The notes under the pieces: model-generated
What the model saw: the letters and a program-made list of their open reading frames with translations, nothing else
Told to the model about the DNA's origin: nothing
The model's database searches: none
Origin: Rheinheimera sp. SA_1
Lineage (GTDB): Bacteria; Pseudomonadota; Gammaproteobacteria; Enterobacterales; Alteromonadaceae
Assembly (NCBI RefSeq): GCF_001669775.1
Contig: NZ_LXWK01000015.1
Location: 744,001-808,000, forward strand
DNA: 64,000 nucleotides
Reading direction: 5' to 3'
Translations under genes and position numbers: made by a program
Part shown: positions 41,128 to 49,683 of the stretch, in pieces
How the letters are laid out: each line of letters begins with the position of its first letter
Position numbering within the stretch: position 1 is the first letter of the stretch

Positions 41128-41217
41128 TGGCGGAGAGAGAGGGATTCGAACCCTCGTTAGGGATTAACCTAAACACACTTTCCAGGCGTGCGCCTTCAGC
41201 CGCTCAGCCATCTCTCC
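41128..41217 (-). tRNA. tRNA-Ser (GGA)
   Basis: 90 nt with encoded CCA. Acceptor stem GGAGAGA/TCTCTCC with G discriminator, long variable arm typical of class II tRNAs, anticodon GGA within CTGGAAA, and T-arm with TTCGAAT. It reads UCC/UCU serine codons. Confidence 0.96.
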
Positions 41218-42463: not shown

Positions 42464-42539
42464 TGGTGGGTCATGATGGATTTGAACCATCGACCAACGG
42501 ATTAAAAGTCCGCTGCTCTACCAGCTGAGCTAATGACCC
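42464..42539 (-). tRNA. tRNA-Lys (UUU), copy 4 of array (nearest nadA)
   Basis: 76 nt, CCA encoded, anticodon TTT in CTTTTAA. Acceptor GGGTCAT/ATGACCC; T-arm GATGG-TTCAAAT-CCATC with the normal G53-C61 pair. Identical to the next copy. Confidence 0.97.
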
Positions 42540-42559
42540 CAAACGGGATTTTGAGAAAG

Positions 42560-42635
42560 TGGTGGGTCATGATGGATTTGAACCATCGACCAACGGATTA
42601 AAAGTCCGCTGCTCTACCAGCTGAGCTAATGACCC
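42560..42635 (-). tRNA. tRNA-Lys (UUU), copy 3 of array
   Basis: 76 nt, identical to the copy at 42464 in the mature sequence. The spacer is 20 bp. Confidence 0.97.
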
Positions 42636-42652
42636 AAACGAAAGGACTGAAC

Positions 42653-42728
42653 TGGTGGGTCATGATGAATTCGAATCATCGACCAACGGATTAAAAGTCC
42701 GCTGCTCTACCAGCTGAGCTAATGACCC
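42653..42728 (-). tRNA. tRNA-Lys (UUU), copy 2 of array, variant T-arm
   Basis: 76 nt. T-arm is GATGA-TTCGAAT-TCATC: the closing pair of the T-stem is A53-U61 instead of the almost universal G53-C61, and the loop has G57. The rest of the body matches the standard copies. Confidence 0.95.
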
Positions 42729-42754
42729 AGTTCAATCTATTGTTTGCGCGAAAG

Positions 42755-42830
42755 TGGTGGGCCATGATGAATTCGAATCATCGACCAACGGATTAAAAGT
42801 CCGCTGCTCTACCAGCTGAGCTAATGGCCC
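42755..42830 (-). tRNA. tRNA-Lys (UUU), copy 1 of array (promoter-proximal), variant T-arm and acceptor
   Basis: 76 nt. It carries the same A53-U61 T-arm as copy 2, and its acceptor stem is GGGCCAT/ATGGCCC: position 4-69 changed from U-A to C-G with both sides altered, so pairing is kept. Confidence 0.95.
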
Positions 42831-46876: not shown

Positions 46877-47308
46877 TTATTTGGACTCCACGTCTTCTGT
46901 CATCAGACCAACCGCCGGCGCTCCGGCTTCTTTTAATAAATTTAGCAATAAGATGATGGACTCATAAGTCACCCGCCCATCCCCTTTAATGATCACCTGG
47001 GTACCGGGTTCAATGGTCAGCGAATCAGTGACTTCCGCCTGTAATTGCTCGGCATTAAACGGGCCTTTATTGACGCCGTCTTTTTCAAAATAATACAAAC
47101 CTGCTTCGTCGACGGTCGCTACGATCGGCGTTTTACCGTCTTTGACTTGCTCAATCGGTTCAGCTTTAGATTTAGGCAACTCGACTTTAACACCCTGAGT
47201 AATGATCGGCGTGGTCACCATAAAGATAATTAACAGTACCAACATAACGTCGATATAAGGTACGACGTTAATTTCAGCGACCATCCGGCGTTTTTTGCGC
47301 ACGTACAT
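46877..47308 (-). CDS. tolR: Tol-Pal system protein TolR
   Basis: 143 residues of the ExbD/TolR family: cytoplasmic start RKKRRMVAEINVVPYIDVMLVLLIIFMV with the conserved proton-pathway aspartate in YIDVML, then a periplasmic domain with DGRVTYESIILLLNLLKEAG. Stator component with TolQ. It overlaps the tolQ stop by one base. Confidence 0.97.
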   Translation of the reverse strand: MYVRKKRRMVAEINVVPYIDVMLVLLIIFMVTTPIITQGVKVELPKSKAEPIEQVKDGKTPIVATVDEAGLYYFEKDGVNKGPFNAEQLQAEVTDSLTIEPGTQVIIKGDGRVTYESIILLLNLLKEAGAPAVGLMTEDVESK

Positions 47309-48000
47309 TATTGACCGTCTCCACCGCTAACTGCCTGACGATGCAGAATATTCGAAAACTCTTCGACAAAGTTGGCATAAGCATTTTCGAGTTGTTCAAC
47401 CCGGTGCGAAAATCTGTTGTAGGCAATAACAGCTGGAATAGCTGCGAATAAACCAATAGCGGTGGCGATCAGAGCTTCAGCAATACCAGGTGCAACCATT
47501 GCAAGAGTGGCTTGTTGCACCGCGCCCAGTGCAATAAATGAGGTCATGATGCCCCAGACGGTGCCGAACAAGCCGATGTATGGGCTAATTGACCCAACAG
47601 TTGCCAGAAAAGGTAAATGCATTTCAAGACGTTCAACTTCACGCGACAGGCACACGCGCATTGCTCTTTGGGTGCCTTCCATTACAGCGCTTGGCTGACG
47701 GGCGTTGGTTTTGTGCAGGCGTGCGAATTCTTTAAAACCGGCTTTAAATAATGATTCCATGCCGTTGACATTGGCACGGGCGCTGACTTCATTGTACAGC
47801 TTAGATAAATCAACACCGGACCAAAAGCGGTCCTCAAATTTGCGGGTATCTTCTGTAGCTTCTTTTAAGGCTTTACTGCGCTGAATAATCATTGCCCATG
47901 AAACGATGGATGCGGCGCTGAGGATGAGCATCACGCACATCACCGGAATACTGGCGCCAAGAATAAGGTGTAAAATTGAAAGTTGACCAGTCACCTGCAC
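47308..48000 (-). CDS. tolQ: Tol-Pal system protein TolQ
   Basis: 230 residues of the ExbB/MotA/TolQ family with three transmembrane helices (about 16-38, 138-160 and 172-195). The motifs [24 protein letters not shown] and [24 protein letters not shown] are diagnostic. Proton channel with TolR that energises TolA. First gene of the tol-pal operon here, since ybgC is absent. Confidence 0.97.
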
Positions 48001-48073: not shown

Positions 48074-48389
48074 CAGCGCAACATCGGCAATTGCAAAAAT
48101 AGTTCCAAATGTGCGCGGATCTGGTGCCAAACCCTATGAATGGAGACCTGCACTTGGTAAAAGTTCACTTTTTACGATGAATCCCCGAGATTCAACGATA
48201 AAGAGTCAAAAGCCGCACTTGCGCATGTTAATCATGAAAAAAATAATCTCAAATATTCATGATATGTTCATCTTACCAAGCTAAGAGCCTTTAGAATATT
48301 GACCTGCATTATGGCATCACTTGATATTCACTAATCATGCATTAATATTCGCATTACTTTTTTTAATGAATTTAGTCAATTTTTCTCGT

Positions 48390-48418
48390 TTGAAGTAAAT
48401 AGTCTAATTACCTAGAAT
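48390..48418 (+). promoter_or_regulatory. Sigma-70 promoter of the candidate small RNA
   Basis: TTGAAG, exact 17-bp spacer, TAGAAT, then a GC-rich discriminator GCCTCCG, as at stable-RNA promoters. No protein-coding gene follows on this strand. Confidence 0.75.
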
Positions 48419-48424
48419 GCCTCC

Positions 48425-48597
48425 GTGTTCTGAGCTAGCGCAACGGTGTGACCCGAGGGTGTTTCACTGTAGTAAAGATCACAGATTAGTTGGATTTGTC
48501 TTCGGATTGAATCGGGCTAGTCAAACATGTTCCCTGGATTTTTGAAGTTCTACTTCAACTTGTTGCATTCGCCCGCTGCTTAAGCGGGCTTTTTTTT
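48425..48597 (+). ncRNA. Candidate small RNA between tolQ and ruvB
   Basis: About 173 nt between a good sigma-70 promoter and a terminator, antiparallel to both flanking genes. A long-range stem can be drawn between GTGTTctgaGCTAGC near the 5' end and GGCTAGtCAAACATG at 48514-48529, extended inward by CCCGA/TCGGG. Then come a perfect 7-bp hairpin TTGAAGT-tct-ACTTCAA (48542-48558) and the terminator stem. Three TGGA/CGGA motifs occur in the body. It does not match 6S, Spot 42, GlmZ, tmRNA or RNase P as I know them. No open frame of useful length is present. The AT-rich stretch 48080-48389 before it holds no gene I can support. Confidence 0.65.
48571..48597 (+). terminator. Rho-independent terminator of the candidate small RNA
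   Basis: GCCCGC-tgcttaa-GCGGGC followed by eight or more T residues. The T-tract is only on the + strand, which shows the direction of transcription; it cannot be the ruvB terminator. Confidence 0.85.
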
Positions 48598-48666: not shown

Positions 48667-49683
48667 TTACTCAGCTTTGGCGGCAGGTAAATCAAAACCA
48701 AAGTGTTTATAAGCATGAGGCGAGGCAATCCGCCCTCTTGGCGTACGCTGAATAAAACCTTGTTGGATCAAAAACGGTTCAATCACATCTTCGATGGTAT
48801 CTTTTTCTTCACCGATTGCGGCTGCCAGATTATCGAGACCAACAGGGCCCCCCATAAATTTTTCGATAATGGTCAGCAATAACTTGCGATCCATATAATC
48901 AAAACCCTGCGCATCCACATCTACCATCAACAACGCCTGATTGGCGACGTCCATCGACACTTCGCCATTGGATTTGACCTGGGCATAATCGCGCACCCGA
49001 CGCAACAACCGATTCGCGATCCGTGGTGTACCACGAGAACGGCGGGCAATTTCTGTCGCAGCTGGTAATTCAAGTTGTAAATTGAGGAAATGAGCGGAAC
49101 GCAGAATGATTTGCGCCAATTCTTCTACTTTATAGAATTCCAGCCGCTGCACGATGCCAAACCGATCACGCAATGGCGACGTTAAGGCTCCAGCGCGTGT
49201 AGTCGCACCAACTAAGGTAAATGGTGGTAAATCAAGTTTAATTGAACGCGCAGCCGGGCCTTCGCCAATCATGATATCCAGCTGATAGTCTTCCATCGCC
49301 GGATACAGGATTTCTTCAACGACCGGACTAAGCCTATGTATTTCATCAATAAAAAGTACATCATTAGGTTCCAGATTGGTCAAAAGCGCGGCTAAATCAC
49401 CGGCTTTTTCCAGTACAGGCCCAGACGTTTGTTTGATATTGACGCCCATTTCATTGGCCACAATCATCGCCAACGTGGTTTTACCCAGACCAGGCGGACC
49501 GAAGATCAATAAATGATCCAGCGGCTCACCCCGCCCCCGCGCGGCTTCAATAAAAATAGCCATTTGCTCGCGGACATGAGTCTGCCCGGTGTAATCGGCC
49601 AATGATTTTGGCCGGATCGCCCTGTCGATCACTTCATCTTCACGGCTGGCGCCGGGGGCAATTAAACGATCCGCTTCAATCAT
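48667..49683 (-). CDS. ruvB: Holliday junction branch migration ATPase RuvB
   Basis: 338 residues. AAA+ motor with Walker [13 protein letters not shown], Walker [10 protein letters not shown], sensor 1 GATTRAG and a C-terminal winged helix (about 255-335: [18 protein letters not shown]). It drives branch migration with RuvA. Last of the ruvC-ruvA-ruvB genes. Confidence 0.98.

Follow-up and report, generated by a model that had tools for sequence, protein, structure and literature searches.

The Locus and Its Features

The window, which is the whole analysed stretch of DNA of 64,000 nucleotides, carries on its plus strand a gene for a small RNA (sRNA) lying between two reading frames of the opposite strand, tolQ and ruvB (Table 1). 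The gene extends over 48353–48597 and begins further upstream than was first described, at a dyad that was overlooked in the first reading and that points to the regulator. The promoter TTGAAG-17 bp-TAGAAT and the terminator with T8, which an earlier note made from the sequence had assigned to this strand, are both present where that note placed them, and the spacing of 17 bp is found in the window sequence.

Table 1: Coordinates of the sRNA gene, its parts, and its neighbours in the window
Feature	Position	Strand	Basis or remark
tolQ (flank)	47308..48000	-	Reading frame
GcvA-type dyad ATTA-N7-TAAT (ATTACTTTTTTTAAT)	48353..48367	+	Centre 48360 = -65 from predicted start 48425
Conserved box CAATTTTTCTCGTTTGAAG including -35 TTGAAG (48390-48395)	48377..48395	+	Alignment of promoters
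-10 element TAGAAT	48413..48418	+	TAAAAT or TATAAT in many relatives
Predicted sRNA transcript, ~173 nt	48425..48597	+	Start inferred from -10 spacing and conserved 5' boundary; end = terminator
Conserved 5' end GTGTTCTGAGCTAGCGCAA	48425..48443	+	CTGAGC at 48430-48435, 70 nt past dyad centre; E. coli gcvB has the same spacing
Variable middle with covarying local hairpins (helices 2 and 4)	48444..48523	+	Consensus fold
GTTCCCTGGATTT, unpaired and strongly conserved; proposed seed for mRNA pairing	48529..48541	+	Alignment and consensus folds
TTGAAG..CTTCAA hairpin and ACTTGTTGC element	48542..48569	+	Alignment, covariation analysis
Intrinsic terminator GCCCGCTGCTTAAGCGGGC-T8, 7-bp stem	48571..48597	+	Sequence, folding
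ruvB (flank)	48667..49683	-	Reading frame

In a single copy these signals are weak, since the promoter is a 9-of-12 match with 8 such sites in the region versus 2.3 expected, terminators number 2 versus 1.1 expected, and the fold of the sequence taken alone has no more than a modest advantage over those of shuffled sequences (z -1.99; 6 of 200 shuffles); it is the conservation that lifts the gene far above chance. The covariance-model search against Rfam that the earlier note had proposed brought no family to its gathering score for the sRNA of the window or for the loci of 15 relatives, GcvB (42 bits) included. Across the 64-kb window the only matches at gathering score are five tRNAs; four consecutive tRNA-Lys(ttt) genes (42464-42830) and one tRNA-Ser(gga) gene (41128-41217) lie on the minus strand. 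A description of this RNA was not found in the literature searched, with most subscription journals outside the reach of the search; the sRNA candidates that a Pseudoalteromonas fuliginea paper names by number could include it (PMC11882849).

Conservation and Distribution

A DNA search over 60 genomes found the element in 25, that is, in all 22 genomes of the window's genus (its own included) and partially in three further genera. Every one of the 22 copies matches across promoter, body, and terminator, in agreement with the conservation in close relatives on which the earlier note had let its claim depend. The aligned copies are built of the conserved promoter, the 5' end GTGTTCTGAGCTAGCGCAA, a variable middle, the block CATGTTCCCTGGA-TTTTGAAG..CTTCAACTTGTTGCATT, and the terminator. 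Of 295 Alteromonadaceae genomes, sampled evenly from a larger group, 197 are matched at E<=0.01 by a covariance model of the 3' block (model R1, unrelated to the GcvB arm called R1); by genus the count is 39 of 52. In an order-wide sample the same model matches 17 of 247 genomes at E<=0.001, with 15 of these matches among the 19 Alteromonadaceae; two matches in other bacterial families (G374 and G378) also agree with the promoter profile R2 introduced below (33.2 and 31.6 bits), and neither belongs to its training set.

For comparison 39 contexts were picked from the 197 matching genomes so as to cover genera, with one locus whose place was guessed (L095, genome G022) left out, and together with the 22 loci of the window's genus they make 61 loci in 30 genera. 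A second piece in one genome (L026, G026) was kept out of the alignments, and near duplicates were omitted (L006 from one alignment, L002 from the window-subclade fold, and L015 and L016 from the second-subclade fold). Over the 61 loci TTCCCTGGA occurs in 45, TTYYYTGGA in 52, and TTGTTG in 53. In a short-pattern scan of named genomes many of the at least 80 loci listed fall in unrelated taxa and represent chance matches.

The place of the gene is conserved as well: RuvB and YbgC or TolQ flank the RNA on both sides in 33 of the 39 family contexts, in four only the YbgC/TolQ side lies inside the fetched stretch, and in two, both of genus g63, neither does. A GcvA match occurs in none of the 39 fetched contexts, most of which span 9 kb. 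The proposal of the earlier note that the sRNA stands in place of ybgC had to be given up, because relatives carry ybgC and the sRNA side by side; in G014, which belongs to the window's genus, and in G140 ybgC lies near the RNA and both are present. A ybgC match is missing at E<=1e-8 in G000, G003, and G012, and some species are simply without ybgC.

RNA Structure and Covariation

In the window subclade (9 sequences, 8 distinct) the consensus structure comprises 50 pairs in 7 helices. The paired cells amount to 92.9% (86.6% for shuffled alignments), both partners have changed in 11 pairs versus 6.8 (a value reached by 1 of 500 shuffles), and the covariation score is 0.241 versus 0.138 (reached by none of 500). 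For four of five covariation measures no shuffle reached the observed value and for the fifth 1 of 500 did, the shuffles being of a kind that does not keep the relatedness among the sequences; slid versions all came out far lower. The compensatory changes that had been suggested as a check are thereby found in relatives. The second subclade (10 sequences) likewise folds into consecutive hairpins, but since a double change is seen just once it adds little to the covariation case.

Local hairpins in a row make up the conserved fold, and TTCCCTGGATTT is unpaired in both consensus folds except for its first base or two. The long-range pairings GCTAGC/GGCTAG and CCCGA/TCGGG that the earlier note had pointed out are not part of this fold, since both partners are present only in L001 and L002 of the 22 genus members. 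The hairpin preceding the terminator sits in a helix that never varies, which speaks neither for nor against it.

The stretch had also been described as about 150 nt without an open frame, which has to be corrected, as in the window copy one frame is open for 42 codons (48417-48545). The idea that the locus encodes a short peptide, or is an untranslated leader, instead of a regulatory RNA could appeal to this frame, which 8 of 22 genus members keep intact (ATG and 40 open codons); its ATG, however, overlaps the -10 element, the frame is lost in 14 of the 22, the helices covary, and both neighbour genes lie on the opposite strand. The peptide gene was rejected on account of the start codon and the lost frame, and the whole explanation is scarcely credible.

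A negligible chance is likewise left to a CsrA-sequestering RNA of Csr type or a 6S RNA. The three GGA words of the window copy, from which the earlier note had derived possible CsrA binding, are reduced to a single one in 13 of the 22 genus members; the only GGA common to all 22 is that inside CCCTGGA, which is unpaired in both folds and does not form a hairpin loop. Csr/Rsm RNAs carry repeated GGA in hairpin loops, whereas a member of the present family has one to three GGA, and 6S RNA has a long closing stem with a central bulge in contrast to the row of local hairpins. 6S RNA gave no match at gathering or relaxed threshold, and CsrB is also missing from the relaxed Rfam matches. The relaxed matches mostly end on the terminator hairpin; isrD, Trp_leader, rseX, suhB, and anti-hemB, all far below cut-off, were taken as chance.

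The undescribed small RNA gene proposed by the earlier note is upheld by its conserved promoter and terminator, its covarying helices, and the lack of an Rfam match at gathering score, and that the gene is real can be regarded as practically certain.

The Promoter Dyad and the Probable Regulator GcvA

In 55 of the 61 loci, representing 27 of the 30 genera, the promoter has a perfect ATTA-N7-TAAT dyad, the centre of which precedes the TTG of the -35 element by 30-31 nt. According to a study of LysR-type sites the GcvA site reads ATTAG-n5-CTAAT, contains ATTA-n7-TAAT, and is centred at -65 and -43 of E. coli gcvB (PMC5002191). The E. coli gcvB record carries ATTAGTTTTTTTAAT at -65, and the predicted site of the present sRNA agrees in motif and in position (-65) with the published one. 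The conserved box CAATTTTTCTCGTTTGAAG is possibly a second GcvA site, which by analogy would be equated with the published -43 repeat of E. coli gcvB. What is new here is the occurrence of a predicted GcvA site of gcvB type, at the same place, in the promoter of an uncatalogued sRNA beside ruvB.

A sequence profile (R2) built from 24 promoters of the sRNA was searched in 18 genomes, and 11 further loci were read, with many weaker matches besides. Six of the 11 fall in the gap that separates gcvA from a small gene divergent from it (G064, G226, G061, G149, G106, and G088), two before a gene for a ThrE-like exporter, and three before a gene for a small membrane protein. In the single copy tested, that of G064, the regulator is GcvA by NF008352 (440 bits, cut-off 288); GcvA of G000 is 62% identical to the query, and gcvA is present in all genomes examined for it (nine in one search and six in the R2 loci). 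Seven of 15 gcvB loci are likewise picked up by the profile at E<=0.02, and its training set includes none of these. Twelve of these 15 loci are over the Rfam cut-off or annotated, while L282, L283, and L289 are below it, yet have a GcvA match next to them and contain the GcvB R1 core GTTGTGTTT.

Altogether control of the sRNA promoter by GcvA is very likely, judging from the sequence of the site. It could be supposed instead that a real sRNA with an unrelated function has its promoter bound by another LysR-type regulator of similar site preference, for T-N11-A is common to LysR sites, weaker GcvA-like proteins occur in 6 of 9 genomes searched, and upstream of gcvA itself a perfect dyad was found in only three of nine genomes (G067, G140, and G014) and none in the other six, G000 among them. 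Against this quite improbable case stand the full motif, the -65 position as published for GcvA at gcvB, and the motif upstream of gcvA in six genomes.

Other genes behind the same motif were seen in the course of this reading. Divergent from gcvA in L123, L124, L126, L128, L131, and L133 is a frame for a secreted-looking protein of about 90 aa, which starts about 170-185 nt downstream of the dyad (near 1500 of those loci); neither of two copies tested has an NCBIfam match, and the gene may be another GcvA target. In other bacterial families this position is the seat of gcvB. According to a 2022 paper gcvB and gcvA always occur as a divergent pair (PMC9409037). The ThrE-like exporter gene follows the R2 match in L129 and L132 (weak NCBIfam match, 40.8 bits against a cut-off of 550), and the small membrane protein gene in L116, L125, and L127. 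In L125 and L127 the next gene is Smr-like. The second R2 match of G148 (L116, C4:85479) scores 33.6 bits, which is higher than the 31.3 bits of the sRNA promoter of that genome.

Relation to GcvB

A 2006 search for gcvB by its gcvA neighbourhood names ten genera (PMC1557403). In the order-wide sample GcvB exceeds its cut-off in 57 of 247 genomes and in none of the 19 Alteromonadaceae among them, and a separate search of 24 Alteromonadaceae genomes likewise gave none above cut-off, with 39 genomes of the family examined in all. None of the ten genera of the 2006 search is known to belong to Alteromonadaceae. The distributions of GcvB and of the present sRNA are complementary.

The highest GcvB score of any member is 29.7 bits (E 3.8e-5) at L088 of genus g52, where GcvB is the best Rfam family; the alignment runs the full length of the model, and the stretch holding the GcvB R1 arm is for the most part deleted in it. 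In G072, of the same genus, a GcvB match of 28.8 bits overlaps the match of model R1. For 20 other short loci GcvB is listed in eight, at 19.6-23 bits, which is no better than several unrelated terminator-bearing families. Five sub-threshold GcvB matches were recorded in Alteromonadaceae (G012, G022, G072, G075, and G143), and only that of G072 is placed on the sRNA; those of G012, G075, and G143 lie away from it and were rejected as support, as was that of G022, which overlaps an apparent coding-gene end with its terminator, in a fetched stretch that model R1 does not match.

A second line of comparison, our own and not part of a published GcvB definition, concerns CTGAGC in the conserved 5' end, which the window copy carries. 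Counted from 30 nt before the -35 TTG, 31 of 61 loci, in 13 of 30 genera, have CTGAGC 69-70 nt further on, versus 0.44 in shuffled segments; it is absent in the other 30, and the 31 are not independent, because 18 of them belong to the window's genus. Counted from the dyad centre itself it stands at 69-71 nt in 28 of 56 perfect-dyad loci (11 genera). Among the nine gcvB loci scanned four have it at that place, three of these being identical in the stretch.

These observations suggest that the sRNA is, by descent, a strongly diverged GcvB, which on sequence grounds we consider somewhat better than an even chance. The opposite explanation, an independent sRNA family under GcvA control that has replaced GcvB in Alteromonadaceae as an analogue and not an orthologue, is less likely. 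It would fit the lack of any GcvB match above cut-off, the missing R1 core, the different genomic site, and the GcvB scores that are mostly level with unrelated families, and it is opposed by the spacing between dyad and CTGAGC, which is almost that of E. coli gcvB, and by the full-length GcvB alignment in genus g52. Plain membership in the Rfam family was rejected, as the score was below cut-off in every test. The RNA is most suitably described as an sRNA with a GcvA-type promoter, probably GcvB-like in action and GcvB-derived, which is not called a member of RF00022 because it reaches no cut-off score, lacks GTTGTGTTT, and does not lie beside gcvA. Outside Alteromonadaceae, the copy L272 (G374, reverse strand, about 2349-2428) holds a G/U-rich GGTTGTGTTG directly before the terminator, which recalls the GcvB R1 arm at another place and could possibly be an intermediate.

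Proposed Mode of Action

From the observed conservation, covariation, GcvA-type site at the gcvB position, shared CTGAGC, and lack of a GcvB above the Rfam cut-off in 39 genomes we infer expression of the RNA, its control by GcvA and glycine, use of Hfq, function of the seed, targets, and descent. Ancestral GcvB would have moved into the gap between ruvB and ybgC/tolQ and lost its G/U-rich R1 arm. The LysR-type regulator GcvA would bind the dyad at -65, and perhaps also the box beside the -35 element, and activate the promoter in the presence of ample glycine, in the manner of E. coli gcvB; activation of gcvB by GcvA at high glycine is described in a published paper (PMC3658693). The transcript of about 173 nt is predicted to fold into local hairpins and to end in a T8 terminator of the Hfq-bound kind; the hfq gene was found in 8 of 8 genomes searched. 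The exposed GUUCCCUGGAUUU would then lower the translation of mRNAs from amino-acid or peptide metabolism by pairing with their ribosome-binding regions, and Hfq may aid the pairing of GUUCCCUGGA with such regions. Taken as a whole, we lean towards a relocated and diverged GcvB, now a stand-alone sRNA that is activated by GcvA and pairs with mRNAs through UUCCCUGGA.

The search for targets was as follows. The exact complement of ten seed bases has 3, 1, and 1 matches outside the sRNA in three genomes, none of them at the start of a frame of at least 80 codons. A pairing test on 31 transporter starts (from 32 loci, with L321 dropped for an internal stop) gave nothing consistent and is weak, since many of the chosen starts look internal. 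The best pairing, equalled by 0 of 100 shuffles, was that of a Na/alanine symporter in G000, which was not accepted as a target, as the symporter matches L310 (G003) and L317 (G014) gave 45 and 6 of 100.

GcvB serves as a model for the global control of amino-acid uptake by an sRNA; its known action is the Hfq-dependent repression of dppA, oppA, and mRNAs for amino-acid transport. That an unrecognised GcvA-dependent family holds its role in Alteromonadaceae from another site, with the R1 arm lost and UUCCCUGGA as the main seed, appears to us slightly favoured over its negation. If true, a master amino-acid sRNA is able to change its chromosomal place and give up its main seed and yet survive by way of its promoter and 5' end. 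GcvB is unrecognisable in the 39 Alteromonadaceae genomes examined, although gcvA was present in every genome in which it was looked for. In 197 of 295 sampled genomes the sRNA is a candidate for the GcvA-driven RNA that seemed to be missing, and it offers a natural experiment in which the pairing arms of an sRNA may have changed while its regulator stayed the same.

Comparison with Known Regulatory RNAs

A seed of the UUCCCUGG type is shared with ArcZ and SdsR. These two RNAs have other regulators and gene neighbourhoods, and neither name occurs in the Rfam listings for the sRNA loci.

The closest known system is characterized by both differences and likenesses. Unlike gcvB, the present sRNA gene lies between ruvB and ybgC/tolQ and not beside gcvA, its predicted product measures about 173 nt versus 206 nt for E. 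coli gcvB, and the G/U-rich R1 core GTTGTGTTT is present in none of its 61 loci versus 15 of 15 gcvB loci. Shared with GcvB are the GcvA-type dyad with its centre 65 nt ahead of the start (which is predicted in the present sRNA), CTGAGC about 70 nt past the dyad centre (4 of the 9 gcvB loci scanned), a stretch of TTCC type within the 3' half (10 of 15 gcvB loci), and the terminator with a U-run.
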